From: Alentia gelatinosa
Taxonomy: Eukaryota; Annelida; Polychaeta; Phyllodocida; Polynoidae
Assembly (NCBI GenBank): GCA_950022655.1
Contig: OX465580.1
Coordinates: 124,479,016-124,543,015 of the forward strand
Length of the DNA: 64,000 nt
Direction: 5' to 3'
Shown here: positions 11,195 through 61,982 of the stretch, one piece after another
Layout: the number at the start of each line of letters is the position of its first letter
Numbering within the stretch: the first letter of the stretch is position 1
The notes under the pieces: generated by a model
The model's database searches: none
The model's input: only the letters and a program-made list of their open reading frames with translations
What the model was told of the DNA's origin: nothing
Position numbers and translations under genes: made by a program

Positions 11195-11576
11195 ATACAA
11201 AGTGTCCATAGAAAACACAAAGGGAGTGTGTATGGACATACCCGGTGCATACGGATATGTACATGCTCCGGGTGGCGCATACGGAAAAATAGTGCGTATG
11301 GAAAAATAGTGCAAAACTAAAACGAACTGATATCGACATGCCACTTGTCCAGAAAAGGTGGTTAATAAATAAAATATAGACTAGTTTCAGATAAAAGCAG
11401 TTGTATGCTCCTCGGAGTTGCCTCTGCGCAACATCCTCGCATACGCTCGGATAAAACTACGCGTCAACTCCTCGGAGCATACGGCCGCTTGTATCTGAAA
11501 CCAGTCAATATTGTGTATATATGATCCGAGTTTGGTGATAAATACTCCCTATGTGTTTTCTATGGGCACTTTGTAT
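11195..11576. mobile_element. Family H foldback element with outer TIRs
   Basis: The outer inverted repeats are ATACAAAGTGTCCATAGAAA (11195) and TTTCTATGGGCACTTTGTAT (ending 11576), about 30 bp each. An inner foldback has arms GTATGCTCCTCGGAGTTG (11403) and CAACTCCTCGGAGCATAC. Its tip, read on the minus strand at 11433-11452, is ATCC, GA, GCGTATGC, GA, GGAT. A second copy at about 61297-61560 shares the inner foldback and flanks such as CTTTTCCTGACA. Noncoding. Confidence 0.8.
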
Positions 11577-13040
11577 TGGGTAGATAATATAAGGATACCT
11601 ACTTAGACCATTATATGATATGTGCAGGTAGCATCATCTATATCATTTGGATCCCCATCACCACAACTCATGCAGGAGGTTTTGATAAGCTGCCCTTTAA
11701 CTCCTCTTTGATTTCCCTAACGACTATTGTCAGCTTCCCGTACATCAGAGCCTGAGGGAACATTGTCGCTCTGCCTTCTTCCATCGAGTCATTAGTGGGA
11801 ATGGTTTTATACTATCTAACTCTGTCCTAGATTAAACAGCTGTCGCGCAGGCAAGTAGATTTGGCTGATTTTGCTGCGTGCCTGCGGCTGGCATTAATGT
11901 GGCATTCTGAGAGTATCAGCAGAGATGTTCCCCTGACATAAGCTGGGAAATAGTTGCTACTCACTGCGTGTAGGTATTAAAGGATAAGAGCAGTAATTGT
12001 CGTCTGCTTTTTCCATCACCATAAAGCTGCTTTAGATGATCCTTTAATGACTGATGTATTTATATGAATCCTCTGTGTTTTCCAACGTAATGGGGTTTTC
12101 CATGAATGATAAATCTAGTTATTAGCAATGTTTCCTTCTGAAAAAAGCTAACAATAAGGGAATGATTATCAGTAACTTCAAACAGCTCTCTAATTGTTGA
12201 CTGTAATAAACATGAAGTTACCTATGGACTACTTAAACTATAGTAACATGGACTGACAGTTAAGGAGCTGTCAATGAACTATTTTTTTTATAGTTGTCTA
12301 TTATAATTTTCATTAACCTCATGATGACTTGGTTTTTACTGAGTATATTGTTCATGAGTAATGAATAACCTTTTCTTTGTGTTTGTTCGAACTTACTGTG
12401 ACTGAATGTATTGAAAAACTGTGAGGGCAATCATACCGGCGGAAGCTGACGCCCCTGCAGTCTAAAGACTGAAATAATAAAAAAAATATATAAAAAAAAA
12501 TGAAGAGAATAGCCTGACTTGTGACTACAACAGGGCTGGGGTAGGAACTCGATAATGGTTCTACGTGTGGGCGAGATCAAGGGTCAAACCGCTTCAAGAA
12601 TTTCACTGCATATTTGATGGGTGGCCTCCTGACCACTTATAGATACCGCATTCAAGGAGTGAGGTGCATTCACAGAGGTCTGGGCTTTGAAGGATATCGG
12701 GAAGAAAGATAAGGGGGTGACTGATGGGAGATCATGGTCTGGAGGAAGAGATGAGCCTGGGATTTCGAGACCATTGATAAGAGGTGATTTTATTACCCTG
12801 GGCCGGCGGGGATTCTGACCTGTCCGTCCGTTACCAATGTAAGCAGCACCCCACCCACCGGCTTCTGGCCGTTCTGGTTCCGGTTGTTCTTTGTCCACAA
12901 GTTCCCATCTTTGTGATCTTTCTTGGGATGTCTTCATCCTTCAGTGCTGCCAATGCAGGGAGGAATCATAATCATATTTCCGGACCGTTCTTATTAGAAA
13001 TATATCTGCAGGGCAGACACCTCACAGTATGACACAGTTT
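11577..13040. other. Gene-free stretch; possible retroelement tail
   Basis: Mostly unique. At about 12400-12506 the text ACCGGCGGAAGCTGACG is followed by AATAATAAAAAAA and further A runs, as at the 3' end of a poly(A)-tailed retroelement. No ORF precedes it. A minus-strand frame at 12584-12937 (117 codons) is discussed under rejected items. Confidence 0.35.
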
Positions 13041-13195
13041 GTTATCCATCGTATACAAAGTCCCCATTGAGAGTGTATGGCGACTCAGTAAACCACTACC
13101 CATTGTTTAAAAACTGTCGGATACCATAACCATGGTATACGGACTCAAAACTGTGATATACAGCCTCAAAGCCATCGTATACGGGAAAGAGGTCC
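13041..13195. mobile_element. Family I element, part
   Basis: CATCGTATACAAAG, CCCCATTGA, GGTATACGGACTCAAAACTG and ATATACAGCCTCAAAGCCAT are shared in the same order with 42557-43060. Several short GTATAC inverted repeats suggest a hairpin. Boundaries are uncertain. Confidence 0.6.
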
Positions 13196-13608
13196 CGATA
13201 TGAAGCAAAAACATAGTTCATAGCGATATACCCTTTAATATAGGTTTTATCTATTGGAGAAGATTGATAATAAATACAACAAACGATGGTTTAGTGACCT
13301 GGGACCTGTTTCACTAGTCTCGTGACATTAGGCCTAGACAGACATCAACAGCGGCACCAACAGTGCAAGCAACAGCGGAAAAGGACTAGCAAATATCAGA
13401 AGATCGAAGTGGCCAATCTTGTTCATATTTGGAACGATTATAGATTAGATGTAGCCCCTACACATAGTAAAGTGTCATTGTTTAATTCCAACGAGAAGTG
13501 AGTGAAACGCTGTGTGTCATTGATTGCAATCTTGTGATCTGTCCGTATGGTGTCACAGACGCCATCTAGACATGTCACGAAACTTCTGAAGCAGGTCCCA
13601 GGTGACTC

Positions 13609-13699
13609 TGTTAACCACTCGAGGTTGACGTTGTAATACACTTGCGGACGCTCGTGTATCACTGCGCGTCAACTGCTCATGGTTTACGGCCGCCTGCAC
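13609..13699. mobile_element. Family I foldback
   Basis: The arms are TTAACCACTCGAGGTTGACG and CGTCAACTGCTCATGGTTTA, with GCCGCCTG outside. The same arms enclose the perfect hairpin at 48310-48409. The tip around 13632-13662 keeps the stem AATACAC/GTGTAT. Read on the minus strand, one side of the mismatch is GA and the other has become AA. Confidence 0.65.
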
Positions 13700-14161
13700 A
13701 CAAAACCATCAGTTGTTGTCTATATAATGAACTGCGGATGACAGGGTCAAGGCTTTAATTGTCGTTCGTACTATGAGACTGGCTTGTCATTCCCATCTCA
13801 AAGATTCAACCGCACTTTGTCTAGAGTTAGGCCATGAAATGCTACAAACCTGAGTCTTTAGTCGACGACCTTTCCTTCCTCGCGCAGCAACATGGCTAAT
13901 TACCAAGAGTACACTAAACATAAAAACAAGACCATGACGGGCTCTACCTGAGGCAGATTCTGACAGCTGTTGCCCGTTCTCAGCAGCGACCTAGATATGC
14001 AGGTTGCTGAGTAGTAGGAAGCTGCATACCAGCTTGTAGGGACCTGCTGCCATCACCAACCTGACACATTGATGGTGTGAGTGGCAGATTCGTTATGTTA
14101 GCTCAGCATACATCCGATTCATCAAGCGAACCTCCCAGAAGCTATTCTATATACATATTAT

Positions 14162-14541
14162 CGTAAAACCGGATGAGTTTTAATCTTGGCTCCCGTATGC
14201 GACGACTGGAGTTTGGCGTAGTGATATACGGAGCCAAAACTCCAGGAGTCGCATACGGGGCCCAGATTAAAACGAATAAGGTTTTGATTTTATCCTACCC
14301 CCTGTGAACGATATTTTTATGTGAGGATGATAACAAAAAACACGATAAAAACTTTCTGAAGTCCTCCATATAGCTCTCCTTGCTGCTCTGAAGGCGCTTG
14401 GAACTACTTTCATCTGCTGATCTCTGATTGGTCCATTTTGTGTACGCTCCTAGGAGCGATTTTTTATCCGTATGCGACATACGGGCGCATACGGAAAGTC
14501 AATGTTAAGCCTATGGGATTTTATATTAGGGGTAGGATAAA
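14162..14541 (+). mobile_element. Composite foldback element G-D
   Basis: Foldback G (14162-14274) has arms GTTTTAATCTTGGCTCCCG and CGGGGCCCAGATTAAAACG. Its tip is shortened: GGCGTAGTGATATACGG remains, but the GA/GA hairpin present in the copy at 15446-15477 is missing. After a linker GAATAAGGTTTTGA comes a D module from TTTATCCTACCCC (14288) to GGGGTAGGATAAA (14541), with CAATGTTAAGCCTATGG near its right end. A reverse-order copy lies at 15222-15537. Confidence 0.85.
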
Positions 14542-14687
14542 TCTAGTATCATCGGTTGCGCCTCCTTGATGAGACCCTCGCTACTTGTCTTTATGATCTG
14601 TTATTAATGGTTCGGCATGTGATCCCAACTCGAAATTACAACAATGTTGAGTTCTCTGCTTCTAGCGGACATTTGCTCTGGGCTTAG

Positions 14688-14794
14688 TACAGTTAAACCC
14701 CGCCTAACGGGCACCCAGCGTAAGCGAACACCCCGTGTAAGCGGCCACTTTGGCCCGGAACCAAGGGTGGCCTCTTACGCGGGGTACTACTGTA
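14688..14794. mobile_element. pogo/Tigger-like MITE with TA duplication
   Basis: The element CAGTTAAACCCCGCCTAACG ... TTACGCGGGGTACTACTG (14690-14792) has inverted ends and is flanked by TA on both sides. CAGT ends with a CCCCGC block and a TA target-site duplication are typical of nonautonomous members of the pogo branch of Tc1/mariner. About 103 bp and noncoding. The ORF across it is incidental. Confidence 0.7.
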
Positions 14795-15221
14795 TGTTAC
14801 AAAAAGAATGTGAAAATTCAAGTACTTTAAGTTACCAATACCGCCCTACCCAAACTTCTCCGAAGTCTCTGTAAAAGGTAAACAGTGTAAACCAGCAGCT
14901 AGTTCGGTAAGACTTCACACTAAGGGCCAGGCTTAGATTGTGTTACTGAATTTCGCCTTCCGCCTTTGCAAGGGGATGTGGTAGTTCTGACCAGCAGGCC
15001 GCTACCACACCAGGGGTCTATAAGGCTGGGGTTTAGCGATCAGTGCATCATGTACCCAGTGATTAGTGCAGAGGTATTCCTGTAGTCAATGCAAAGTGGT
15101 CAGTGTAGAGTGCATCCAGTACTCACTGAGTCCAGTGCTCTGGAGTATATAGTATGCCAGTTTTTAGTGGATCTCTTGAAATTTTGTTTCATTTTCAGAA
15201 TGAAAAATATAATTCCTCATG

Positions 15222-15537
15222 TATTATCCTACCCCTAATATAAAATCCCATAGGCTTAACATTGAGATTCCGTATGCCACGCTGACTGGCATACGGACGT
15301 TTGTATGCTACTAGGGGCATACGGAATTTTGATGATTTTCATTCATGATTTTGATATTAAAATATTGTAGAGAGGGGTAGGATAAAATCAAAACCTGACT
15401 CGTTTTAATCTTGGCTCCCGTATGCCACTCCTGGCGTTTGGTTCCGGATACCACTCGGCTCCGCCTCGTGATATCACTACGCCAAATGCCAGTCGTGGCA
15501 TACAGGAGCCAAGATTAAAACTCATCCGGTTTTACGA
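15222..15537 (-). mobile_element. Composite foldback element D-G
   Basis: The D module (15222-15387) has TATTATCCTACCCC, then CCATAGGCTTAACATTG, and ends GGGGTAGGATAAAA. The linker leads to foldback G (15399-15537) with arms CGTTTTAATCTTGGCTCCCG and GGAGCCAAGATTAAAACTC. The tip at 15446-15477, read on the minus strand, is a stem GTGATATCAC/GTGGTATCC, GA opposite GA, a GGC/GCC stem and a GGA triloop. The distal position of the CCATAGG core relative to the foldback is the same as at 14162-14541. Confidence 0.88.
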
Positions 15538-15550
15538 TAATATTGATATT

Positions 15551-15731
15551 CCAACTGCTTTATTATACACAATTAAACCACAACCTATGATCCCCTACTG
15601 AACCTCTCCTCTGACCCATGTAAAGACTTAAGCTTTCCCTTGATTCCCCACTGTAATTTGTATGTAATCCGTAAACCCTGTGTTACAATGGAAAATATTT
15701 TAATGTCTATTTCTCTGACCCCAACTGGCAA
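15551..15731. mobile_element. Family N repeat
   Basis: Shared with 45817-46004 over its full length: CCAACTG at the start, CCCCTACTGAACCTC, CTTGATTCCCCACTG, GTAAACCCTGTGTT, and an end related to AACTGGCATCCCTG. About 185 bp, noncoding. A 3' fragment is at 17958-18014. The CATCCCTG end is like those of families M and L. Confidence 0.7.
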
Positions 15732-19044: not shown

Positions 19045-20370
19045 GCGGCCACCATTTACAGCCTCCAGTGCCGTCCACAGATTACAATTATGTCGGCGCT
19101 AATCGCAGCTTCTCTGTGTGAGTATATATCTAAAAGAGGGACAGACTCCCGATAATAAGCCAATCACTAACCCTTAAAGGTGTCGTCGTCTCCCAAGTTT
19201 TTTCCCCGCTTTTTTTTTTCTTCCTCGCGAAGTATTTCTTTGTAGAATCGAAATTAAAATCAATCAAGTTAAGGTGACGCATATATTGACAATGTGGTAA
19301 AAGGCTGTAGTCAATATCGTATGGGGCCTTATGTTGTGGGATGGTGTTTTTTGGGGCTGAAGGGGGAGGAGTCCTCTGAGGGTAAATAAGGAGTGTTAGT
19401 ATTGGCGTTCTTCCCAGCCTTTGCTTGTGTATCCGTGAATATTGACGGATATGGTACACATGGGTTGTTCTGCCTGCAGCTGCGAATTAAGTAACCGAGT
19501 TAGGAAATTCGGCTGTAAAAAGTACCGCCTCTCTCAAAGGAGATTATGTAAGGCTTCCCGAATTCAGCCCAAGTCGATAATTATGAAGGTTTTATGTTAA
19601 TTTGGCAAGAAATCTCCATTTTCTTGATAAAACATTCTCCATATGAATCAGCTCAGACTTTCTTCATTAAGAAGTGTTTCTTTTACCGTTAATTAAAATG
19701 GAGCTCATTTGTAGATGCCATCTGTTGAATATGTAAAAATAATTACCTTTTTACCTTTCGTAGTACTCCTAAATCGTGGAGTTTTCAATCATGTATTTTA
19801 TCAACATCCATTTCAACCTTATTAAATCAAAAGCCACTTAATCACATTGCGACTGCGAATCAAGAATCCTAACGACGGAGAGTGTCATAGGCCCCGACTC
19901 TTTTTTCACTAAGCACCCTTACCCTCAGTAAACTGTATGATCACCACTCTCGGTACTATTTGTCTCCAGTGTCCAACATTACCATCATCTCTGACCTACA
20001 GTTCACGTTCTCAGTGCTGTGTCCGCTATACTGCTACCAGGAATCTCCGATATTACTACCACAAATCTCCAGTGAACTGTTTAGCCATGTCAGGCGGCAT
20101 ACCACGGTGGTTGAATACTAAGTACCTTGCAACCTCAAGGATCCGCTGAAAAAAAAACGTTCTTCGGCTATTGGCCATACTGACTGCCATACTAGTGAAT
20201 AGGTTGACATCAGCTTATTGCATTGGGTGTTTTATGATTTTTCGCTCCCATCGTTCCTCCTCTAAAATGTAGGTATTCGAGTAATTAGTATTAATGGGGA
20301 TGTTAGCTGTAGGGTACCCGTTGAGCGCCACAATAAGAAGGAAATTGATGAGTGTTTGGTCTGTGTCTCC

Positions 20371-20490
20371 GTTCCCCATCGAGTTTGGAGCGCTCAGGGA
20401 TATGAACGAGGCGATAGTCGAGTGAATATTCCAAAGCACCCCAAAGAGATGGCGAACAGGGACTCAGACGAAACATGAATATGTTTCTAA
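20371..20490 (+). mobile_element. Foldback C fragment
   Basis: CCCCATCGAGTTTGGAGCGC, then the tip ATAT, GA, AC, GA, GGC, GATA, GTC, GA, GT, GA, ATAT (20400-20429), then ATGAATATGTTTCTAATT. It matches 61755-61860 and, less closely, the C parts of four other composites. No B module follows clearly. Confidence 0.6.
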
Positions 20491-20560
20491 TTATATCTTC
20501 AAATTGCAGATCCTAAGACGATGGTTTTATCGGGTAACTGACAATTCTCATTAACTTAGC

Positions 20561-30648: not shown

Positions 30649-30871
30649 TCCAAACCCCAAACTCACATTTCTGTCTGTGTAAGTAGTATATGGGATTACG
30701 GATTTCACTCAGGCCTCTCCTAGCATGGTACCCAAGTAGTATATGAAGATGGACATTTTATGCTGGCCTTTCTGCCCATAGCCTGGCTTTCAGAGATTGA
30801 TTTACGCATGTCTAGGGTGACAGCCTGTGGCTAGCAATATGCATTACACTGGACTGAAAATATGTAATACA

Positions 30872-31157
30872 CTGAAACTGGCTTCCTATCTTCGTATGTA
30901 AATAATACGCGGTAAAACTATTCATCAGATATATCCCAATGCCGAAGGCAGAGGAATATATCTGATTGATAATTTTACCATATATTTCGATTTATGAAGA
31001 TAGTAAGCCTATTTTCGTACCACTTTATATCTGAAAATGGCGAAATCTTACTTGGGCACGTGATGACATATTCGTAAGTCACAGTATGGCGTACGGCCAA
31101 AACTACGTCATGGGTAGCAGCGGGCAGCATGTGTAGGTCATACGGCCATAGGTATAA
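30872..31157 (+). mobile_element. Family K double-hairpin element
   Basis: Hairpin 1 has arms ACTGGCTTCCTATCTTCGTA and ATGAAGATAGTAAGC. Its tip at 30928-30963 has a stem GATATATCC/GGAATATATC, AA opposite GA, TGCC/GGCA, and a GAA loop. A second part has GTCACAGTATGGCGTACGG and ACGTCATGGGTAGCAGCGG. The whole aligns with 48685-48976 and 56661-56937. Noncoding. Confidence 0.85.
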
Positions 31158-31982: not shown

Positions 31983-33942
31983 AACGTATAAAAAGGGCCA
32001 AATCTAGTACCATTCCAAACCTGATTACGTGTATCTCTCATCGTAGATAATGAACAGAATATGATTAACATAGTCAATTACAATCTGTCACATAAGCAAT
32101 CATCTCGATATGGTCTGCATCAATAGAACACGTGCTCGTGATGGAAACCGTTGTAGAAGTCCCAGTGGTAAATTGACGCATTACATAGAGATTTGAGGAA
32201 TGCATGCCCATTCAAGCACAGGGGGTGCAGTAGATGCCTCCTGTTCAGGTTGGAGATTTATTCAGAGCGGCAATCCCAATTAATTGTCCCCGCCTTAGTC
32301 AAACGTAATTTGCCGACTTGATCATTTCTTGCAAAAATTATTCACCCAATCTGTGAGCATTGTCACGGGGTTGGCAATCATTACCAGGGGCAGCATATGT
32401 ATGAGAAAGCTAGCATGAGTTCTATAAGCAGATTGCAAAACGAACCGCATAAGCCTCGGATGAACACTGCGACACGAGCCTATTTTTAAGTAATTACGTT
32501 TTGATTATTTCAATCTCGTTAATTTCCGCCGTTGGAGTAGCGTCATATTGAAGTACCATACTCCATTGGTAATGCAACCTTTGGTCCTGTTTAATTTTAT
32601 ATAAAACGCTTACATATTCGTATTATCAGTACCAGTTGTGTAGTGTGACCTACATAACTGTATTGGATGAACCCATTATATGAGAGATACTTTACTCTAA
32701 ATAAAAAAAACATAAAAATACGCCACCTAAAATATGAGTGCTGATGCCTCGGGGAATATTCTAGCTACCAAATCAATCACAACAACTGACACTTAGATAT
32801 GATAACTGAAGTACTCAGCATCCTTTGTCTTCTTTCCTGATAAAACAGGGTTGTATTGTGTTATGTAGGGATCATCTAAAAACGTGTTTACTTCTCTATG
32901 GAGAAGGAAATTTCATCTGTAGATGATCGATGTGAAAAGATTGTCAAACCTTTCATCATGAAGGTTACGTTCACCTGTGATATTCTGAGTATGTCACTCA
33001 AGACAAAGTGTATAGCAGAAACAGTGAATCAATTTATGGCATACAAATGACAGGTTTCATTTTTGACACTGTAGCTATTATCAAACTAGAACATTCAGTA
33101 TCCAGATGTTGGTGGTACAGTGGGCAGACCTTGGTTGTTCTAGGGTTCATTAGAGACCCCATTCTGACGAAGTCGAGGAACCCATCCCAGTCCTGACCCA
33201 CCACTCGGGCACACACAGTGGCCATTCTGTTTATTGCGACCCATATCACAAAGTAAGTCGTGCCCTGCACATCTGCCACTCTCCCCGATTAGGCGCCATT
33301 AAGAAATGGGTTCGGGTAGCGCCATATGTTGCTTCACAGACAAGATTGTATTGAACACCATTCTGTCAGTCAGTACGTGTTGTACTCTGGGTGAAAATCG
33401 TAGGGATTGTGCCCTACTTTATGCTTCGCAGTATAATCCATTCGACAGGTATTGGGTGTGCCATTAACCTTTCGAAAGGTATAAATTGACTTATATATTG
33501 TCTTATATTTGTTAAATGTAGAAAACACCATTTGAGAATTACTGATTATCATTTGAGAATTACTGATCGTTACGGGTCGTGGCATGCCCTGACAGTTGTA
33601 GGTTGTGGCATACACTGATAGTTGTGGTTAATAAAACATCTAAAATATCTAATGTGGATTTCGACATACATTGGGAGTTGTTTATCATACACCTGTGCAT
33701 GTCAGTCTTACAATTACTAACTTCCGCTCCCTGTATCGTATTTAAATATTAAAAGATGTTTAATTTTAAGATTGGCATGGCATTTAATCGGATAATTGTT
33801 TCTCACTCCAGGACCCGTTAATACACCTCGTCCGCCTAACGGCATCAGGGCAGGTATTTGCCGGTCAAGGAGTTCCTAACAATTATCAGATTTCTCCTTT
33901 TCCTAACATATTTACTGATGTGGGATGTGAGATACTATCATG
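31983..33942. other. Gene-free stretch
   Basis: Mainly unique AT-rich DNA. Near 33580-33630 there are repeated words GTGGCATACACTGA and GACAGTTGTAGGTTGTGG, which recur at 34235-34295 beyond the next E-D element. This suggests a short repeat of about 28 bp interrupted by that insertion. Confidence 0.4.
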
Positions 33943-34217
33943 AAACATCACCAAATTTCATATAATTGTTTATATGACATGGGTTGTCTCCGCGGAATGA
34001 TATCACGAAGCGGAGCTGAGTGATATCTGTAGCAGAAGACAACGAACGGCATGTAAACAATAAAATGAAATTGAGTGATGTTTAGATTTTATCCTACCCT
34101 GTCACATGTTTTTAATTTCACATGCCACCAGTGGTATATAGATATTTTATGGCATAACCGTGGCATACAGGCCCACTATTTTAAGTCTATGGAGATTTAT
34201 ATGAGGGGTAGGATAAA
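33943..34217 (+). mobile_element. Composite foldback element E-D (best copy)
   Basis: Foldback E arms: AACATCACCAAATTTCATAT with TTGTTTATATGACATG, opposite GGCATGTAAACAA with ATGAAATTGAGTGATGTT. The tip at 33999-34027 is a stem GATATCAC/GTGATATC, GA opposite GA, AGC/GCT, and a GGA triloop, with every stem base paired. The D module runs from TTTATCCTACCC to GGGGTAGGATAAA (34217), with TTAAGTCTATGG near its right end. Other copies are at 18508-18778 and 56945-57127. Confidence 0.9.
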
Positions 34218-34809: not shown

Positions 34810-35080
34810 TTTATCTCACCCCTGGAATAAATGCCCATAGGCTTAACATTGGGAACTCGTTCTCCATGCCCCTACGAGTATTGCAGTCCGTTCTCCATGG
34901 TCGATATCCTGTGTGTCATCCATAGGGGTGAGATAGATTACAGAAAGCAACTCGTTTTGGTCAAAGAAGTCATTCTGCAACTCGTTTGAATGCTATTTGA
35001 TATTCACTCTGCTGTTGCCTTGTTTATATCACTCCGCATCAAACTCTTGGAGAACGACGACTTTGACCAAAACTTGTTGG
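34810..35080 (-). mobile_element. Composite foldback element B-C
   Basis: The B module (34810-34936) is TTTATCTCACCCC, CCATAGGCTTAACATTGGGA, CGTTCTCCATGCCCC, GGGGTGAGATAGA. The linker CAGAAAGCAACTCG leads into foldback C, with arms TTTTGGTCAAAGAAGTC and CGACGACTTTGACCAAAAC. The tip, 34999-35033 on the minus strand, is ATAT, AA, AC, AA, GGC, AACA, GC. One side of the mismatch has changed to AA. Other C-B copies are at 41639, 46611, 48208 and 61761. Confidence 0.9.
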
Positions 35081-35148
35081 TTTCTTTTTTAGTATTTAGA
35101 ATGGAACGTCGATCGGGGTACCATATGCTTCTTCATTACTTCTCTATT

Positions 35149-46004: not shown

Positions 46005-46610
46005 AGCAAAGACCATTTAACTGAGCAACTTACAATCTGCTCATCCTGGAACAAAGTGCTTCAACTCGTAGAAAGCAAAGTTTGTTACCTGAGTAACTTG
46101 CAGTGTGCTCACACTGACAAGTAAAATCTATCATTTATAAAAAGCACAAAACTGTTAATGATACGGCTCAGAAATTGCTGATGCAGTATCCATCCTCTCT
46201 ACCTCACATCATCTTAAATCTCTATCCCAATCCCCTGTTTGTCATATGGCCTCCCTCTAAGAAATACATGACATAAAAGAATAAACACCCACTTTCATTG
46301 CAATACAGATTAACCTTTGACAAGGTCTGGCGTAACCTTTGCCTTAAGAATGTTTTTAGAAAGCGGGAAGGATTTGAGGAGGGAAGAGAGACAGACGTTG
46401 GAGTTGTAGTTGGTTTAGTGAGAGTCCATTCGTTGTCCACTTACGGTCTACAGTTTGTACGCCAGACACTAGACTTAGTAAACGACCAGAGTGTTTTAAA
46501 CAAGCCACTCGTTAGAGGGCGGGTCGGAAGGAGCTGCTCCCCAGAGGTGCTCATAGTTTTAAGCGGTGGATGTGAACAGTTTATGGGGGCGACCACATTA
46601 AAGAAGAAAC

Positions 46611-46893
46611 CAACAAGTTTTGGTCAAAGTCGTCGTTCTTCACGAGTTTGATGCAGTGTGATATGAACGAGGCGACAGCTGAGTGAATATCAAATAGCAT
46701 TCAAACGAGTTGGAGAAAACTTCTTTGATCAAAACGAGTTGCTTTCTGTATTTATCTCACCCCTATAGACACTAAAAGAATGGACAACACACACGACATA
46801 GACCATGAAGAACGGACTGCAATACGTGCAGGGGCATGGAGAACGAGTTCCCAATGTTAAGCCTATGGACAATTATTCCAGGGGTGCGATAAA
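46611..46893 (+). mobile_element. Composite foldback element C-B
   Basis: It starts CAACAAGTTTTGGTCAAAG. The tip at 46660-46691 is ATAT, GA, AC, GA, GGC, GACA, GCT, GA, GT, GA, ATAT. The second arm GATCAAAACGAGTTG, linker CTTTCTGTA and B module TTTATCTCACCCC follow, ending with CAATGTTAAGCCTATGG and GGGGTGCGATAAA. The tail of a 117-codon frame (46298-46651) runs into it. Confidence 0.9.
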
Positions 46894-48207: not shown

Positions 48208-48674
48208 TTTATCTCACCCCTGGTATTTTTGACTCATAGCCTTAGCGTTGGGAAATCGTTCTCCATGCCCCTACAAGTATTATATAGACAATAATCGCTG
48301 GTTTTCTGGACAGGCGGCCGTAAACCACGCGGGGTTGATGCGTAGTAATACACGAGCGCTAGCGAGTGTATTACGATGTCAACCTAGAGTGGTTTACAGA
48401 GCCGCCTGTCTACAAAATCATCGTTTCATGCATTTATTATCCATCTTTTCGAATAAATGAAAGCTAGTAATTGCCATATTAAAGTATATAACAAAATGGA
48501 CTATTTCTTTGCTCTACAGGGGTGAGATGAATACAGAAAGCAACTCGTTTTGGTCGAAGTCACTATTGTCCAACTTCTTTGAACGCTATGTGATATTCAC
48601 TCAGCTGTCGCCTTGTTCATATCACTCCGCGTCAAACTTGTGGAGAACGATGACTTTGACCAAAACTCGTTGGT
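48208..48674 (-). mobile_element. Composite foldback element B-C, interrupted by family I
   Basis: The B module begins TTTATCTCACCCCTGG, with CATAGCCTTAGCGTTGGGA and CGTTCTCCATGCCCC, breaks at about 48284, and resumes as GGGGTGAGATGAATA (48520). The linker CAGAAAGCAACTCG and foldback C follow (TTTTGGTCGAAGTC ... ATGACTTTGACCAAAAC). The tip read on the minus strand has ATAT, GA, AC, AA, GGC, GACA, GCT, GA, GT, GA, ATAT. Confidence 0.88.
48284..48515. mobile_element. Family I foldback inserted in a B module
   Basis: Arms ACAGGCGGCCGTAAACCAC (48310) and GTGGTTTACAGAGCCGCCTGT (to 48409). The tip at 48345-48374 is a perfect 9-bp stem, GTAATACAC/GTGTATTAC, then GA opposite GA around GCGCTAGC. It replaces the middle of the B module, so family I transposed after this composite was in place. 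Confidence 0.75.
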
Positions 48675-48684
48675 TTCTTCTTTA

Positions 48685-48976
48685 ATACCTATGGCAGTAT
48701 GACCTACACATACTGCCCGCTGCTACCCATGACGTATTTATGGCTATGAGTCACACTGTGACGTCCGGGGTATGACATCACGTAAATAGCTACAAATTCG
48801 ACATTTTTAGGCATATAATGATACGAAAACGGGCTGACCGTCTTTGGACGTCAGAAATATTCGGCAAAATAATTGATCAGATACATCCCGATGCCGAAGG
48901 CAGAAGAATGTATCTGATTGATTATTTGACCGAGAATATTGAAGTACAAAGACGGTCAGCCCTTTTTGTGTAGTAC
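48685..48976 (-). mobile_element. Family K double-hairpin element
   Basis: Reverse-oriented copy. CAGTATGACCTACACATACTG and CTACCCATGACGTA lie at its left. The foldback is at its right, with arms CTGACCGTCTTTGGACGTC and GTACAAAGACGGTCAG. The tip at 48880-48915 has GATACATCC, GA opposite GA, TGCC/GGCA, and a GAA loop. It almost abuts the B-C composite. Confidence 0.88.
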
Positions 48977-49906
48977 AGGCAAATTGCAACGGAGACGAGG
49001 CTGAGCATTTTCTTCTTGTTGATGGAAAAATGAACTTACTGCTCATACCATACTACTCCAGATACCAACGATCCACCTTCATCGCCACTCACCCCCAAGC
49101 AATCCTCAAAACGCAAGTAGCCGAGCATGAAGTATCATTGACTAGGTTGTGTATATCGAACTTTTGACGTCTCGACCTATTGTCCGGAAGAACTGTATAG
49201 CATATTTATAAAAAAAGAGAAGGAACATTAAGGAAACACTGTCTCTGCAAGTGTAACTATACCGCGCTCCTCATAAATCTCACCCAACGACCTGTAGAAT
49301 AAATATTGTACATGTTTTCTGATCAGTCACCACCCATTGTATATATATACCCCAACTCTGACCGCTCGTTTGTTCATCACCACGTGAGTTACCATTCCAC
49401 TCACTACATACATACGCACCGTGCTGCTCGAGGTCCATGGGCCTGTTTCTTATTCCCGCAGCACCTTTAAACAGCTCAATGTTAACACGACACCCTCACA
49501 CCTCCTGTCACGACCTCCACCTCCAAGAGCTGTGTCAACGCGCCTCTGCGCGCCAGTCCATCGTGTAGGACATGTGAACGCGGTAATGGACAGTCTATAG
49601 GGTGAGATGGTGAATGTGATGGCGGCTAGTGGTGGTATTGCAGGCGGTGTAGGTAAACGGTTGGTAGGCTGAGTATGAGGTAATGGAGACGCGGGGTCAG
49701 AGGTCACCAGGGGCGGGCACACACGTCGGATACATCATTTGGTGTGGACGACTCGTAGTAGCCCAGTCGTCACAAGGTTGATGGGATGTCTACTCAGCTC
49801 TTAGGAAAGTTTGACTTGCGGGCAGTGGTCAGCAGGAAGGTGAATTGTTAAAGTATTTATTGAATGAGACATTAATTGTTGCTAGCACCTCATTGTCACC
49901 GTATTA

Positions 49907-50967: not shown

Positions 50968-51368
50968 TTTATCCTACCCCTAATTAAAAATGTCCATAGG
51001 CATAACATAGGCAAATTTTATGCGGCATGCCATGACATAAAGTGCGATTTATGCCTCTAGGGGCATACAAAAATAGACCAATCAGCGACCAGATTGTCAG
51101 CTGCTCCGAAAAAAGTTCCGGTTGGACTGAAAATTTCTGGTTGGACTTTGGTTGGTCGTTCAATCGATATTCATATTTTAGTAATTCAAAAGGGTAGAGA
51201 CGGGGTAGGATAAATATGAAACCGAACTCGAGTTAGACTTGTCAGTGTCTATGCCACTCTGGTCAGGTCTGTTCCTCACTACGCTCAGCTAACGCTTCGC
51301 GTAGTAATACACAGCCTTCCCGTCGTGGCATAAACACTGACAAGTCTAACTCTCGTTCAGTTTCTACT
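50968..51368 (-). mobile_element. Composite foldback element D-F (full)
   Basis: The D module (50968-51214) runs from TTTATCCTACCCC with CCATAGGCATAACATAGG to GGGGTAGGATAAA. Foldback F (51220-51368) has arms GAACTCGAGTTAGACTTGTC and GACAAGTCTAACTCTCGTTC. The tip at 51274-51307, read on the minus strand, is a stem CTACGC/GCGTAG, GA opposite GA, AGC/GCT, and a GTTA loop. The D module is longer than in other copies, with extra sequence containing repeated GGTTGGACT. Confidence 0.9.
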
Positions 51369-53090
51369 AAATACTGCCATATCAAGCTGTTAATAAAGAC
51401 AGTAATTTTGTCGGGGACTTGGTGAAAAGTAATAAACGCATCGGGGGTTTTCCTTATGGAAGTAAACATTCTACTTATTCATCCAAACTGACATTTCCCG
51501 TGCCTCAATCCATCCTAAATCAATTCCAGGCAATTTCTACTGAAAGCTTTTTACTGCAGTCAATGAGCAACTCGAGAAAGTAGGTCAGTGATTAGAGTGC
51601 ATCCATCACATGCTGGAGGTGACCGCTGAGAGCCCTTCTATTGGACGATAGGTAAACTGGTCAGTAGTGGGCGTGGGAGGCGGTCAGGGTCCGTCAAGTG
51701 TTGTCTGCCGAAGTGTGCTCGACTAGAGTAACTCCCACTCTTTCGCATTGCCGGGGGAGCCGCTCCGAGTTGGTAGTCACCGGCTAGGTACCCCGATCTG
51801 GCTTCCCCTTATTGGGTGATTATATAAGAGCTATTTGAGCTTGGAGGCAGATTAATCCTCTCTGAGAAACCAATCAAAGCTGTGAGTGGTTGGACCTACC
51901 CAGTCCAGGTAACGATAAATCAGGGAGACGTATTGAGGGCGGTGCCTTTTCATTGAGCTGCTCAGAGGTGCTCAGCGAAAATGAAGAGTTGGCTTCTAAA
52001 TGGCGCCGTCATGACGTAAATTGCTCAGAATGGGGTTCAGCTTGGGTTGGTTACAAAAGACCTGGGCCGTAGATTGTGCCACAGAGACTGTAAAGTGGTA
52101 TCTTCTCTCATATATCAAGTCTCCCTACTGTACCTTATGGTGTGTGTCATTCATAATGCGTTGAATATTGTTCAATTTAGTTTAAGTCTGATGGTATGGA
52201 ATTTCAGGTATAATCTCGCATGGTATGGTTACAGCACTGGTCCTAGTAGACTATGAGTGCTTGTGTCAAAGCCAGCCACAATATTTACACACAGTATAAT
52301 GTACATTTTATACTTGTCGTGGGGTGAGATTAAAAACTAAATGGATATGGCGAACTCTTTCAATTGTACACATGAGTTCTGATAATGTCCTCATAGGAAA
52401 GAGGTCTAATTTATGAATTATATACTACCTGATATGTACCCTTAAAATCTCCAAATATCAAAAGGTTGTGCACTTAATTTCCATAGGCATATGCATATAT
52501 AGTATACTGTACCGAGGCAACGTCCAAGAACGACATGCACGTATGCGTAATGATTGTACATTGTCAGAATGATGTAGCTATAAATGCAATGTTGGTACAA
52601 TATTCAATATAGAAATCAACTCACATTAAAGAATCATAGTCCGCTTTAAATCTTTTCATAAAATGTAATCATGGAAAGCTACACAACAAATCTTACTGCA
52701 ATACGGCTGCACTGAGATTCAATATGCATTGAAATGGCTGGAATCATTAGGCCGGTACTTTGGACCGGCGAGAAAAAGGGACCTACTTCACGACATTTAT
52801 CTGCGAATCATTAGTTGATAATAAATAATTAATCAGGGATTTATCAGCACAATGTCACGACTGCTGTTTACCAGAGCCTGGTATTCATTTCCTTCTCCTG
52901 GTATTTGTATTGCGATGTAAACAAAACCAGATTGCTTGTAAATTGTTGAGATTAGCGTGGTCTGGATACGACGATAGAAAGAGGTGTGATCCTGGTAATG
53001 TAGACGATTGTAATATATGGCTTCCCTATGTGGCTTAAAGACAAATGCTGGTAGTTGGGTGATTTCTAAATTCTATTGAGATTTGCAAAT
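51369..53090. other. Gene-free stretch
   Basis: Unique sequence. 51660-51800 is somewhat GC-richer. No splice-supported ORF or known repeat family was seen. Confidence 0.45.
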
Positions 53091-53440: not shown

Positions 53441-53554
53441 CAGTGTTAAACCAGGGGGCGTTTCGATACCTACCCGCATTTGTCTTTAACCACTGACCGT
53501 TTCAATATTTCCAAAGACGTTACAGGGTCGTTGCACTGTGCAATGAGATTACCT

Positions 53555-53765
53555 GCAGGGACCAGTTAAATAATCTTGAATCGTACATGAAGACCCCTTT
53601 CTGTACATCGTACAAGGTTTATCATTTGTTGATATTGAAGTATGTTCACTAAGATAGTATTAGCCGTCCATAAGGTCGTCTATAAGTCTTGAATTAAGTT
53701 GACCCACATTGTCACTGGGTCTTATTGGCACACACAAAAAAAGAGTTTTCATGAACGAGCCGAAA
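53555..53765 (-). mobile_element. Family A MITE, diverged
   Basis: GCAGGGACCAGTTAAATAA and AATCGTACATGAAGACCCC at the left. Centre AGATAGTATTAGCCGTCCAT, AAGTTGACCCACATTG and ACTGGGTCTT. The right end is decayed (TTTTCATGAACGAGCC). Confidence 0.75.
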
Positions 53766-56660: not shown

Positions 56661-56937
56661 ATACGGAAACTGGCTTACTGTCTTCGTACGTCAAAAATAC
56701 GCGGTGAAATTATTGATCGCATACATCCCGATGCCGTAGGCAGAGGGATGTATGTGATCAATTTTATTTTGATGTACGAAGACAGTCAGACTGTTTTCGT
56801 ATTATTATATACCTAAAAATGAGAAAATTTTACCTTGTCACGTGACCACATACCCCGTACGCCACAGTGTGACGTACGGGTATAAATACGTCATGGGTAG
56901 GAGCGGGTAGTATGCGTAGTTCATACACCACAGGTAT
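56661..56937 (+). mobile_element. Family K double-hairpin element
   Basis: Arms ACTGGCTTACTGTCTTCGTAC and GTACGAAGACAGTCAG. The tip at 56715-56759 has a stem CATACATCCC/GGGATGTATG, GA opposite GA, TGCC/GGCA, and a GTA loop, which differs from the GAA of the other two copies but keeps the GNA pattern. The second hairpin is CCCGTACGCCACAGTG/TGACGTACGGG. Ends ACGTCATGGGTAGGAGCGG. Confidence 0.9.
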
Positions 56938-56944
56938 TATCAAG

Positions 56945-57127
56945 AAATGTCACGAAATTTCATATGGTTGTTTATATGGCATGAGTTGTCTACGCGGAAT
57001 GATATCACGAAGCGGATGTTTTTAACCTCATATGTCACCCGTGGCATATAAATAATTTATGGCATAACCGTGGCATACAGTCACACCATGTTAAGCCTAT
57101 GGAGATTTATATGAGGGGTAGGATAAA
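56945..57127 (+). mobile_element. Composite foldback element E-D, internally deleted
   Basis: The first arm of E (GTCACGAAATTTCATAT ... GCGGAATGATATCACG) runs to the middle of the tip (AAGCGGA). The text then jumps to the D interior (TGTTTTTAACCTCATATGTC) and finishes CCATGTTAAGCCTATGG and GGGGTAGGATAAA. The deletion starts inside the hairpin tip. It lies eight bases from the family K copy. Confidence 0.88.
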
Positions 57128-58750
57128 TAATAATATGCTATGAACAGAAGATATTTTGAAAACAAGAGTAACCTAAACCTCTTACAAGGTGTTGTATACA
57201 AATATGTTCATATAGAAAATATCTCCTCTGTCATACAGCACTGAATATAAAAAAATCTACCAAGATGTGGTTTATCGTTGGAGTTGTCGTATCGTCCAGC
57301 ACAGCACCAGAGACGAACGAAATCTATTCAATAGCCCCTAGTTCTATATGATTATGTTGTAAACATTGACCTTGTCTCAACTTGGTAGGAGTAGGATCTA
57401 TTCGACAGCTAGCCTCGTTCAAACATGTCTTATCTCAACTTACCTCATTACATAATAGTGTTAGTGATAGAAAGGGAACTTTCAGAATGTCTCAGTTGAT
57501 ATCAGCGGTCTCGTGGTTAACACATCAACTCAAACTGAGGTCAACCCTACTTACCATCAACACCATTTACCACCATCCATCTTCCCTGATGAGCGCCCCC
57601 GGACGGCCGCCTTCCGCACCAGGACGCGACCCCTGGTGAGAAGAAAAAGCCCCATTGTCGGTAATCCGTCTCGCTCCTAATTGTGAAGCTGAGTTGTTTG
57701 TGTTTAAGTGTTCAGATGTTTGTTTATAGGCGTTGTTTTCGCAACCCGAATGGTATTTCAACCCCAGGGAGGTGTTTTTAAAACTAGGAATGATGATGAC
57801 GTTAAGACTATGAATAGGTCCTACCACAGCGATACCAACTAGGATATTCATGTCAGTCCGTAGTTTAAACGTGGTTGTTAGAAATTCAAATCACCTTTCG
57901 AAGCTTTCATCTTCCTATTTCTCCTTTCAAATTGGAGGACATTTATCATGTATGATCAATTTAAATAGCAACAGATTGATAAACGGTGAAAGTTATCGGC
58001 CTCTCAATAATTCAGATTTACGATTTTCTGTTATCGCCTTTAAAATCGCACTTAAGGTAAGAGAATGTAACAAAAGCCACCGATCAATTTGTCTATGGTT
58101 TCTATAGTTTAAAAACACCTCCCAGGTCTTCCACGAGGCAACAACCTTTTGATGGTGGTTTCGGTGGAATCGGCTAAGATCAAAGACCCATCTAAACTTT
58201 ATGTATGCCACACAAATTTCAATTTGCATTTGCATACTGCATCTATAGTCCTTACCGCATACTAGGATTGCATGGTTTTTCTTAACTTGTACTCCATTTT
58301 AGCTTGAAAAGACGCACTTTTCCTTCCGTCCCGCGTGTGCCAGAGCGGCAGGATGGGTAAAATTAAGATTAACTTCCTCGTATACCCTATTGTATTCCAT
58401 TTTAGGCTAGAATAGGCTGTCAGTTGTGGCAATTTTAATCTGGCTCAAGGGGCCTGGTAGTTATTCTTAGATTTTTATTTACAGGTTTTAAAACACAGAG
58501 ACACTTCGGAGACACTTTAACCAAATGTCTCCTCTCGTAGTATATCAGCAACCTATTTAAAAGTTTCATAAAATCTCCCCTTTTATGACTAGCTCCCTTC
58601 ATTTGTTTCTTGGGATTTCGATATCAAAGTGAAAAGCTCCCTTTGAATATCTGACATTGTATTCAGAAATGGAATTGCAGATAGATGAAATCACAATAAA
58701 GTTTCATGTTCTGATAATTGGGCTTAATCTGAGAGAAACCATACTAGCTA
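57128..58750. other. Gene-free stretch
   Basis: Unique sequence. Near 58351 ATGGGTAAAATTAAGATT gives MGKIKI, a chance start with a short frame. No other coding signal. Confidence 0.4.
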
Positions 58751-58941
58751 CAGGGTACAAGGATACAGGTTTTCCGACAAATGACGGAATTCTGACATTT
58801 CATATTCATCGGTAACACTCACAGCGTTAGAATATATATCAATTAGTAGCCATTCTGTTCCAAAATAACGTTATAAGTAATTATTTTTCTTGAGTGTTTT
58901 AAATTTCCGATTTTCTCGCCAGCCCAGACTTTCATCCCCGA
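58751..58941 (+). mobile_element. Family L MITE, short copy
   Basis: CAGGGTACAAGGATACAGG then TTTCCGACAAATGACGG at the left. TTTCTCGCCAGCCCAGACTT and TCATCCCCG at the right. About 190 bp, with an internal deletion relative to 31627-31982. Confidence 0.6.
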
Positions 58942-59639
58942 GGGCATATTTCAGTCGTGACGAAACCTGTTGATATACTGGCGTTTTCTCAGCAATGTTG
59001 ATTACAGCTGAGAGTGACAGGTTTATACCCGGTTTGATGGGTTCCAGGCTGACGGGTGGGTTATTGCATGAATCTGCAGCGTGTTTGGCTCCGGATGGTT
59101 GATGTCAGTTTGGAGTGGCTGCTGACAATCGGTGTCAGCAAGGTCGAGGTGGTGTCAAGTAGAAGGGCTCTTTCTACACGACCAGTGAGAATTGGCAAGA
59201 GAAATTCTTTTAAACAATATTCTCTTCCCACCAATGCAACCTGGAATGTGTATTTCAGAGTTTTATTCAATAACTTAAGTTATAACTGCAGTTATTTCCT
59301 GATAGTGGAACATATTCCAAGGAAAATATCGTTTTTTTCTTGAAATGATAGAATCCATTTAAAAAAAGAAGAAGAGACTACCATGATCGATCTCAGGTAT
59401 TTACAACTTCAATATCTAACACTTATAAAGCTAAGTCACGATAAGAGATATTCATTTTAAGGTGTAATTCCCTAAAGAAGAACTGCGAATCCTAACATAG
59501 ATCGCGAACGGACAATGCCTGTCAGATAACAATTCTGATAATTACCCTTCCAAAGCTATTCAGATCCAATAATAGAAGCAAACTTCATTAAATGATCGTT
59601 TCCTCCCATGGAAGTAGTTTGAATGAAATCTAAGATTGT

Positions 59640-60120
59640 CGCGAAAACAACGGAAGTGCGTCCGATATCCTCAGCAAACAAAGGCCCTCCGATACAATGA
59701 TGGCGGCGGAAGTCATCTACCTGAAGCCACCTCGCTAAGTGGCTTCTGGCAGGTGGTTTCCGTCGTCGTGTGTGCCGTGTCCTTGACGCATGTTTACCAC
59801 CGGCGGCCGGGGGAGGACGACTTGACGAAGGTTACAATGCCGACTTGACACCGCATCCGCCATACTGCTTCCGGTATCGAAGGATGATGCTTCCTGCGAG
59901 GCGGGAAATGAATGCGGCCTTGGTTTATTGGATGGAGGTTGGGCGGGGAGGTAGCAGGCATGGAGAGTGAGTGGTGAGAGGGAGACGGGACGATTGGTTC
60001 CCGGTTAAAGTGATGCCGGCTGGGAGGAGCTGGCGTACGCAAAGCGGGTCCAAATAGAACGGAGGGACTTTTGGGGATAAGCGGCAGGGACCTGGGGGTG
60101 TGGGGGAAGGTGAGGGCGAG
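59640..60120. promoter_or_regulatory. CpG-rich patch with YY1/ETS-like motif
   Basis: ACAATGATGGCGGCGGAAG (59694-59712) combines a YY1-like ATGGCGGC with an ETS GGAAG. Both are common around CpG promoters, and the surrounding 450 bp is CpG-rich. The ATG opens only 13 codons. Another plus frame (59636 onward) includes RKQRKCVRYPQQ and reaches CAG/GTGGTT. Both are weak. The direction of any transcription is unknown. Confidence 0.3.
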
Positions 60121-60224
60121 TGAAGTAATGGCACAGACGGACGCGTCGCCCATTACACAGATTGCCAGTAGCAAAGGTCAAGTGGTCGTAGTTAGCTCAG
60201 AGCCTGTAACATGACCTCAGCTGC

Positions 60225-60955
60225 GAGTGCCGGTGCCGCAGTGCGGAGGTGTGCCGTGTGGAGGGGTGCAGTGTGTAGGGGTGTAGTGTGGTGGGGTGTA
60301 GTGCAGAGGGGTGTAGTGTGGTGGGGTGTAGTGCAGAGGGGTGTAGTGCAGAGGGGTGTAGTGCAGAGGGCTGTAGTGCAGATGGCTGTAGTGCAGAGAG
60401 GTGTACTGTAGAGGGGTGTAATACAAAGGGTTGTAGTGTGGAGGGTTGTAGAGCAGAGGGGTCTAAAGGAGAGGGGTGTAGTGTTGAAGGTTATAGTATC
60501 GAGGGGTGTAGTGTGGAGGGGTGTAGAGCGGAGGGATGTAGTGTGGAGTGTAGAGGGGTGTAGTATGGAAGGGTGTAGTGTGGAGGGGTGTAGTATGGAG
60601 GGGTGTAGTGTGTAGGGATGTAGTGTGGAAGGGTTTAGTGTGTAGGGGTGTAGAGTAGAGAGGTGTGGACAAATGTTGTGTGAAGGGGTGCAGTGCAGAG
60701 GGGTTTAATGTGGAGGGTGTAGTGTGGGGGCTTTAGAGCGGAGGGGTGTAGTGTGGGGTGTAGTGTGGAGGGATGTAGTGTGGAGGGATGTAGTGTGGAG
60801 TGTAGTGTGGAGGGATGTAGTGTGGAGGGGTGTAGTGTGGTGGGGTGGTAGTGTGGGGTGTAATGTGGAGGGATGTTGTGTGGAGGAGTGTAGTGTGGAG
60901 GGTGTAGTACGGAGGGGTGTAATGCAGAGGGGTGTAGGGAAGGGGTCAGAGGATT
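60225..60955. repeat. 15-bp minisatellite
   Basis: About 48 copies of GTGTAGTGTGGAGGG with variants (GTGCAGAGGG, GTATGGAGGG). Because the unit is five codons, long periodic frames (VVWWGVVQRG, SAEGCSVEGC, TTPLHTTPLH) appear on both strands and are not genes. Purines are concentrated on the plus strand. Confidence 0.93.
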
Positions 60956-61296
60956 GAGGCAGGGTTGTGAATATGAGGTCGGGGACATATATGGTATGGG
61001 GCATAGGTCAGAGGACACAGAGACATTGGCATGGAGTGGGCGCATAGGCTTCGGACGGACGTCGCTTGGACACCACGGAAAGAATAAGAAGGTGGACAAT
61101 GGGCTTCAACTATAAGCAATGGCGGCCGGAGATCATTGGAATAGCCGGTTTGCTAGAAATTTATGATATGTGCGCACTGACAATTATTATGAACCTCACT
61201 TTAGTCATCAGACTATGTGTTGTGATTGCTGTGCCTTCTGAGACTAGTATTGTCCGCGGGTCCATGTTTGCATTTGATACATACAGAATATTGACG

Positions 61297-61560
61297 CATA
61301 GTACTGAGCAGAGTCAACTCCGAGGAGCATACAGTCGGGTTTTTTTTCTGAAACCAGTGTATATTGTATTTATTATCCACCTTTTCCTGACATGTGGAGC
61401 AGTAGTATTAGTTCATTTTAGATACGTACTATTTTTCCGTGTGTGCCGGGTTTTGCAGCCCGAAGCATACAACATATATCCGTATCTCTGGATATGTAGA
61501 TACACGCTGCACATATGTTTTCTTTGGACGGTATGTTTTAGGTGGATAATTAATACATGT
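61297..61560. mobile_element. Family H foldback element, second copy
   Basis: GTCAACTCCGAGGAGCATAC, CTGAAACCAGTGTATATTG, ATCCACCTTTTCCTGACA and TTAGTTCATTTTAGATACG are the reverse complement of blocks in 11195-11576. The 172-codon frame at 61066-61584 runs through it and is therefore not supported as a gene. Confidence 0.7.
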
Positions 61561-61760
61561 TCCGTTCTCCGAGTTCATTTCTGAACGCAGTGCTGGTGGC
61601 GAGATGGGGGACCAGTGTGGATGAGTTTAACCGCGAGGCCATTTAGATAATTTGCCTTCTCCTTTTGAAGAACATTAGATTTCGTTAATGATGTAAGGGA
61701 TCTTACTTGATCTTTATTTTTGTTCACATTAAGAGAGAAATTGAAAAGTATTCGGTCTGT

Positions 61761-61982
61761 AATATGATAAAGGCGATTGCCGAGTGAATATTCTGAAGCG
61801 CTCTAAATGAGATGGCCAATGGGGACACTGACCACACACCAATATGTTTCTGATTTTACCTTAGCCTGGAAATATTTATCTGTTTATCACCCATTGAGTA
61901 TGAGTTACCGTACTCGCAAGTCTGTTGAGTATGAGTTCCCAATATTAAGCCTATCGACATCCATACCAAGCTCAGGTGATAA
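61761..61982 (+). mobile_element. Composite foldback element C-B, diverged
   Basis: Tip AATAT, GA, TA, AA, GGC, GATT, GCC, GA, GT, GA, ATATT at 61761-61792. CTAAATGAGATGG and AATATGTTTCTGATTTTACC follow as in the fragment at 20371. Then a decayed B module has its core at the far end (CAATATTAAGCCTATCG) and ends CTCAGGTGATAA. Same module order as the other C-B copies. Confidence 0.7.

Follow-up and report, generated by a model that had tools for sequence, protein, structure and literature searches.

The window analysed here, a 64-kb stretch of Alentia gelatinosa DNA (contig C2, 124,479,016-124,543,015; the assembly comprises 1.234 Gb in 101 contigs), contains short transposon elements that carry at one end a long hairpin in which GA recurrently stands opposite GA. 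These tandem G.A mismatches (GA/GA steps) lie in set zones along the stem and, in every hairpin that has two or more of them, on one and the same strand. Taken together, the orientation of that strand, its excess of G.T mismatches and the folding energies indicate that one single strand appears to have been selected for its fold along the lineage of active copies. That the strand carrying the GA letters (the GA strand) folds is, in our judgement, very nearly secure, and its folding as DNA rather than as RNA is probable.

The main sample combined the window with 20 stretches of 10 kb (L010-L029) spaced 5 Mb apart on contig C1. Long hairpins were located by folding windows on both strands, and each was then matched against its reverse complement by an energy-free alignment, which gives G.A pairs no advantage. 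Step positions were taken from folds of either strand together with the energy-free alignment, and the nulls for GA/GA from the energy-free alignment only; at a few listed steps the neighbouring positions do not pair on the GA strand, as with the step at 33 in hairpin F, which adjoins a C.A mismatch. Steps were assigned to three zones of half-distance from the apex (up to 12, 27-37 and 58-64 nt). The main counts use the window and 16 of the 20 stretches, with L011 excluded for its tandem arrays and L017, L018 and L025 excluded post hoc, after an earlier hairpin result was known; restoring all four adds six hairpins, no GA/GA step and 12 other tandem mismatches, three of them in the zones. Hairpin K, with arms of unequal length, failed the palindrome threshold and was left out of the counts, and nine stretches picked by tip or by protein (L001-L009) were kept outside the quoted figures. 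A held-out set of six further 10-kb stretches on five contigs (L030-L035) was fetched after the zones had been fixed. Over the window and all 20 stretches, combined detection yielded 61 hairpins, 32 of them with GA/GA, and 52 steps.

GA/GA accounts for 38 of the 107 tandem mismatches in the 55 hairpins of the window and 16 stretches, as compared with a mean of 0.69 (maximum 5 in 5000 runs) in a null drawn from the single-mismatch spectrum, and a mean of 7.4 (maximum 18) in a null that permutes the four bases making up a mismatch. The held-out stretches gave 11 of 32 by the same energy-free alignment, against null means of 0.19 (maximum 3) and 2.0 (maximum 8). Since a GA/GA step requires two transversions in one arm, it would not be a natural outcome of palindrome decay. 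The steps are also far from evenly spread: in the main and held-out samples together the zones, whose centres are some 6, 33 and 61 nt away from the apex, contain 61 of 67 GA/GA steps, as opposed to 54 of 129 other tandem mismatches. Among the 18 held-out hairpins, nine carry GA/GA, and all 15 of their steps lie at 6-7, 32-36 or 61-63 nt, while only 14 of 31 other tandem mismatches fall in the zones. The context 5'-PyGAPu-3', which favours sheared tandem G.A pairs, is present on both sides in 56 of the 67 steps. An earlier note on this DNA had described GA/GA as a feature of hairpin tips, and it is correct in coordinates and strand at six of them (E, 33999-34027; G, 15446-15477, minus strand; F, 51274-51307, minus; K, 56715-56759; I, 48345-48374; H, 11433-11452, minus); the recurrence in three zones means, however, that the tip is only one of its places.

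All steps lie on one strand in 18 of 18 hairpins with at least two of them (main and held-out), for which the chance would be 2^-26 if steps were independent; the held-out set contributes 5 of 5. As the opposite strand has TC opposite TC, the steps break the strand symmetry of the palindrome. The GA strand is also consistently oriented with respect to the rest of the element wherever the TTATCYYACCC repeat fixes orientation, hairpin K2 (below) being an exception. Exactly one TTATCYYACCC flank occurs in 23 of the 55 hairpins, 17 of which carry GA/GA, and in 17 of these 17 the flank is 3' of the GA strand; the remaining 15 of the 32 GA/GA hairpins lack it, and most have other repeats on the same side, as judged by eye. 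Single mismatches read on the GA strand are more often G.T than A.C (45 versus 19, p = 0.0016, where two or more pairs flank the mismatch; 30 versus 12 where three or more do). With the GA steps used to orient the hairpins, the GA strand has the better folding energy in 31 of 32 under RNA parameters and in 28 of 32 under DNA parameters, and it keeps this lead in 29 of 32 (DNA parameters) after the steps have been made Watson-Crick in silico.

The earlier note had named compensating changes in the stems as a test of a structure conserved despite diverged sequence, and both are borne out: the fold of one strand is retained across families, and compensation is seen between families as well as among the first 100 listed matches of each of two tip patterns. 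With one sequence taken per family, the pairs beside the tip steps (nine families) and the mid steps (11 families) are standard in 67-100%, each being represented across families by one to seven letter combinations. Patterns constrained solely at the steps, at the C-G pair closing the loop and at the two ends of the loop were counted across the genome. The triloop pattern gave 13,737 matches, compared with 9,431 for its reversed control; all three free pairs are Watson-Crick in 61 of the first 100 listed (shuffle mean 14.8, maximum 25), among which there are eight different compensated mini-stems. Of the 40 distinct combinations, 8 pair throughout (shuffle mean 1.6, maximum 7). For the tetraloop pattern, both free pairs are standard in 85 of the first 100 listed; of these 85 paired tips, 80 have a pyrimidine as the third loop base, where the GNRA loops of RNA would need a purine, and GTTA, GACA and GATA make up 78.

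The tips themselves often end in a compact cap, C-G-closed loops of the GNA, GNNA or GNAB type being present in 26 of 48 marked hairpins. Forty hairpins could be oriented independently of the tip, and 19 of these have GNA (11), GNNA (7) or GNAB (1) loops, all 19 closed by C-G, with the reverse-complement loop type found in 0 of 40. Those marked by a tip step only have loops of these kinds in 7 of 8 cases, and the 25 unmarked hairpins include one GNAB loop (T-A closed), one of the reverse-complement type, 22 others and one in which no loop was found. The suggestion of stable-hairpin caps is supported: the GNA and GNNA loops belong to a class described as highly stable in DNA, in that passages of one source call GNA/GNNA mini-hairpins with G-C stems extraordinarily stable (PMC4686876) and passages of another, citing Nakano 2002, list GNNA and GNAB among stable DNA tetraloops (PMC8373063).

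The hairpins, about 130-195 nt in size, occupy one end of elements whose lengths lie between about 200 bp (C) and 410 bp (F). Read along the GA strand, the order is: terminus (TA..GAAAC), hairpin, subterminal repeat, short core, inverted repeat and terminus. The repeat next to the hairpin is TTATCCTACCCC, with TTATCTCACCCC, TTAACCACC or TATACCT in other families, and the inverted repeat at the far end is GGGGTAGGATAA or a variant of it. The ends of family E were defined from ten copies, eight of them chosen by tip, and nine of the ten have the full tail and both ends; no target-site duplication is consistent among the ten aligned copies, TAA being seen by eye on both sides in three. The 41 GA/GA hairpins of the main and held-out samples group into 12-13 blastn families. 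These had been taken for unrelated, an opinion contradicted by their similar ends and hairpin base (GAAAC..GTTTC) and, by eye, by shared letters before C-GA at the tip; they therefore belong to one diverged superfamily. Judged from sequence, it is a superfamily of short non-autonomous DNA transposons with Helitron2-like repeats. The 260 kb of L010-L029 and L030-L035 contain 21 and nine GA/GA hairpins, respectively, and from these 30 we infer by extrapolation about 140,000 in the genome.

The individual hairpins of the window are given here with their strand and the half-distances (in nt) of their steps. Hairpin C (411..544, plus) has GA/GA at 19 and 49, formed by C-GA-G at 427-430 with 524-527 and by C-GA-T at 457-460 with A-GA-G at 494-497; the two successive steps claimed for it are therefore real, but neither is at the tip, which is an 8-nt loop with no GA/GA. 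Its core (541..612, plus) has the subterminal repeat TTATCTTACCCC ... GGGGTAGGATAA. Hairpin H (11365..11520, minus) has steps at the tip (5.5) and at 30.5, and a c-GTAT-g loop. Hairpin G2 (14155..14293, plus) has steps at 21.5 and 50, the tip step being absent, and hairpin G (15382..15543, minus) has them at 6, 32.5 and 61.5 below a c-GGA-g loop; their cores (14290..14540, plus, and 15224..15385, minus) are each bounded by their own subterminal repeats. Hairpin E (33918..34107, plus) combines a GA/GA tip and a c-GGA-g loop with GG/GA at 32 and CA/GA at 61, and its core (34089..34216, plus) lies between TTATCCTACCC and GGGGTAGGATAA. Hairpin E2 (46579..46770, plus; core 46752..46892, plus, with TTATCTCACCCC ... 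GGGGTGCGATAA) has GA/GA at 6.5, 10.5 and 32, AA/GA at 61, TC/TT at 46 and a c-GACA-g loop. Three more hairpins belong to the E2 cluster: 20330..20494 (plus), with GA/GA at 6.5, 10.5 and 64; 34940..35087 (minus), in which AA/GA replaces GA/GA at 10.5 and 61.5 and TC/TT appears on the other strand at 46.5; and 48527..48686 (minus), with GA/GA at 10.5 and 61.5 and AA/GA at 6.5. Hairpin I (48282..48437, plus) has a GA/GA tip and a c-GCTA-g loop. Hairpin F (51204..51378, minus) has steps at 6.5, 28, 33 and 63, a c-GTTA-g loop and a core (50969..51213, minus) bounded by its own subterminal repeats. Hairpin K (56661..56802, plus) has a GA/GA tip and a c-GTA-g loop on its unequal arms, Kx (30871..31018, plus) a degenerate tip step, AA/GA on the plus strand, and K2 (48802..48986, plus) a GA/GA tip and a c-GAA-g loop, its interior being inverted relative to its own tail. 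Comparison with K and Kx shows this, and shows that the outermost 12 nt or so are not inverted: an arm-to-arm inversion of the palindrome.

The repeat anatomy invites comparison with Helitron2 and Helentron elements, in which, according to passages of two descriptions, asymmetric inverted repeats of 8-15 bp lie one 0-2 bp from the terminus and the other beside the terminal hairpin (PMC3627910, PMC4067079). Such elements also have a second hairpin, built from the outer repeat and the sequence downstream of it, and they insert into T-rich sites with no duplication of the target. The same placement of the repeats is found here, in family E by alignment of copies and in the other families by the position of the repeat beside the hairpin, and, like HINE/DINE-1 elements, those described here are short, non-coding and abundant. 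They differ, however, in the length of the hairpin, which is not short and therefore puts the inner repeat more than 100 bp from the terminus, as opposed to about 20-60 bp, and in the tandem G.A steps at set distances. Because of the hairpin size, and because no intact RepHel gene was found in this genome, we do not class them as Helitron2 despite the repeat anatomy. Integron attC sites offer an analogy of another kind: one account describes them as diverging in sequence while keeping the fold of one strand, irregularities of the helix directing the choice of strand (PMC2727003). The attC sites are bacterial, however, have extrahelical bases instead of tandem G.A pairs, and are read by IntI, a tyrosine recombinase acting there on the folded strand. 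Reading of end hairpins on a single strand may likewise be compared with IS200/IS605, where subterminal secondary structures are reportedly recognised by the Y1 HUH transposase TnpA (PMC6006769), unlike which the present elements have a long hairpin at one end only. The caps resemble DNA of the d(GCGAAGC) kind, in that about half of the marked hairpins combine two to four G-C-rich pairs with a C-G-closed loop, GNA or GNNA; here, however, the cap is natural and covarying, sits on a transposon hairpin and is stacked on tandem G.A steps. A literature search found no description of tandem GA in transposon hairpins, which is not proof of absence.

Protein searches of the 1.23-Gb genome did not single out a partner. 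Helitron_like_N gave at least one match, at L009 (C7:36,825,292), in a frame broken into several pieces, with 0 of 14 control genomes matched, and PIF1 gave at least nine; no intact partner of Helitron type came from these, and the partner may be extinct. Y1_Tnp had no match in the genome, while the same search matched 5 of 14 control genomes, all prokaryotic; DDE_3 had none either, its control search matching 3 of 14; and Viral_Rep (CRESS-type Rep) matched neither this genome nor any control, so that its absence is uninformative. DDE_Tnp_4 yielded 1080 first-look candidates, of which 150 were scored and matched. As Harbinger partners, two families of these were inspected at one locus each and rejected as lacking such ends: L040 has no subterminal repeat (one mismatch allowed) and no tip pattern, the hairpin finder not having been applied to it, and L041 has one tip-pattern match without a surrounding long hairpin, repeat matches that look like chance at two mismatches, and a weak hairpin (755-927, 48 of 74 columns paired) with no GA/GA. 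Dozens of the 150 scored matches are identical in score and have frames of one length (496 or 301 aa), most of them stop-free, and this uniformity suggests, as far as sequence can tell, recent activity of Harbinger-type elements. Tyrosine recombinases gave 5316 first-look candidates, 150 of them scored; the one copy inspected as a possible partner (L016) is of the DIRS/PAT type, with no hairpin of this sort seen next to it. At this locus (1-2560), two direct repeats of 300 nt, 99% alike and 544 nt apart, come after the recombinase (Pfam Phage_integrase, 4.8e-9).

In the mechanism that we propose, the end of an element would become single-stranded, by replication or by cruciform extrusion, and the GA strand would fold into a rod with up to three zones of G.A steps, often capped by C-GNA-G or C-GNNA-G. 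The mobilising enzyme would bind the folded GA strand, pick strand and register from the cap and the steps, and cut close to the base of the hairpin. As the steps are G.A on one strand and T.C on the other, the enzyme could tell which strand it holds, much as extrahelical bases mark the strand in attC sites. We hold the complete model of single-strand reading at these transposon ends to be evenly poised between right and wrong, and the recognition of the fold by the enzyme, with the steps serving as strand marks, might equally well be true or false. If it is true, the steps explain how an enzyme distinguishes the two strands of a near-palindrome. Many copies display their tips, their steps and the choice of strand, and these supply exact substrates for testing. 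Natural secondary structures of DNA, rather than RNA, that are conserved by compensating changes are to our knowledge rare, and single-strand recognition of ends in eukaryotic transposons is, as far as we know, mostly inferred. A more far-reaching version, in which more than 100,000 elements (an extrapolated figure) would be recognised as folded single-stranded DNA, with the G.A steps as a strand-marking code, the caps as evolved DNA structures and the whole as a eukaryotic counterpart of attC, is offered only tentatively, as we think it rather unlikely.

Several observations weigh against this mechanism. No enzyme linkable to these ends was found among the families searched in the genome. GA/GA is present in only 41 of the 79 hairpins retained in the window, all 20 stretches and the held-out set, and, as copies of one family share ancestry, the independent units are the 12-13 families. 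C and G2 have no tip step, Kx has AA/GA in its place, and other loops occur in 21 of the 40 hairpins oriented independently of the tip. The degenerate steps are partly incoherent, TC/TT being on the opposite strand at about 46 in the hairpins at 34940 and 46579, and the GA strand of K2 runs the opposite way, this hairpin being inverted relative to its tail. The preponderance of G.T over A.C loses significance with flanks of at least four pairs (12 versus 8). The covariation tallies come from the first 100 matches listed per pattern, all in the first 8.5 Mb of C1, and the tetraloop pattern shows no raw excess (15,401 matches versus 15,822), the reversed control, which has no CpG, being poorly matched in this case. 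Finally, if the elements are taken as Helitron2, their 5'-to-3' strand is not the one that bears the stable GA fold but its complement, and folding of RNA is compatible with much of the same evidence.

The last point leads to a rival explanation in which the conserved fold works in RNA, the GA strand being transcribed and its hairpin bound, processed or protected, for instance to serve a mobile element as template or guide. RNA commonly contains tandem G.A pairs, the G.T mismatches of the GA strand are commoner than A.C, and under RNA parameters the two strands lie further apart in energy (median -10.05 versus -3.0 kcal/mol, in addition to the 31 of 32 hairpins mentioned above). However, the caps fit the DNA catalogue, down to the pyrimidine of the paired tetraloops and to the c-GTAT-g loop of H, which fits GNAB; the window has no Rfam match at gathering score, hairpin F giving only a sub-threshold mir-942 (23.5 bits, cut-off 100); and the paired subterminal repeats, with both ends in nine of ten E copies (eight tip-chosen), are as in DNA transposons. 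We regard RNA as an unlikely seat of the fold, though by no means a negligible one. More credible, if still on the doubtful side, is an origin as ordinary Helitron2- or Helentron-derived (HINE-like) elements with an oversized hairpin, the G.A steps being a local oddity of a rolling-circle system that has died out. It would account for the repeat at the terminus and the partner adjoining the terminal hairpin, as in passages of the descriptions cited (PMC3627910, PMC4067079), for the lack, by eye, of a consistent target-site duplication in the ten E copies, and for the one broken Helitron-like locus; it is at odds with the hairpin length, with the tally of at least one Helitron_like_N and at least nine PIF1 matches in the whole genome, and with the strand on which the stable fold lies. 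A Helitron2 enzyme could itself read a folded strand, so that this explanation overlaps with the one we propose, as do the probabilities assigned to them; it names an enzyme class and is compatible with single-strand reading.

Two further explanations were weighed. The steps could be mismatch spacers that prevent extrusion or cutting of the palindrome and are not read as structure, and their zones, about 28 nt apart, do break up perfect stems; but spacers would need neither GA/GA, observed 38 times among 107 where 0.69 was expected, nor one strand, kept in 18 of 18 hairpins, and the cap is often specified as well, which makes this the least probable of the alternatives. Scarcely better placed is the idea that the steps are short double-stranded protein-binding words (YGAR) with the same direction in both arms: many steps do have identical CGAG letters in the two arms (22 of 60 for k = 2 and energy below -40, loci chosen by the E tip being tabulated apart), but the arms share the step only, and the flanks vary between families while staying complementary to the other arm.

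A search of the sampled sequence for longer elements ending alike produced six candidates, none of which was retained: four had the partner repeat only at two mismatches, one (L010:176) is by eye a truncated end, and one (L014:5681) is a nested I-type element. Nesting and abutting of elements were seen by eye elsewhere as well: an I-type hairpin lies within an E2-type tail at about 5680-5990 of L014, an E element directly follows a G-type end in L004, and L006 has several tail repeats. In the window, the E copy at 56932-57127 has lost one hairpin arm, the join at about 57016 being near the hairpin centre. Among viral contigs, the tail pattern had 0 matches and the E tip four exact ones (two in one sequence), none of which folds with the E hairpin. 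The 64-kb window has no tRNA genes. A separate dispersed repeat family with ATTAAACGGGCCCCTGG-like termini and no GA/GA is found in the window at 2872-3364, 6217-6443, 53556-53739 and 62553-62783, and is partly palindromic (3071-3144). A tandem array of GGTGTAGTGCAGAGG-like units, recognised by eye, occupies 60240-60945, and the GC skew across 60001-64000 is 0.25.

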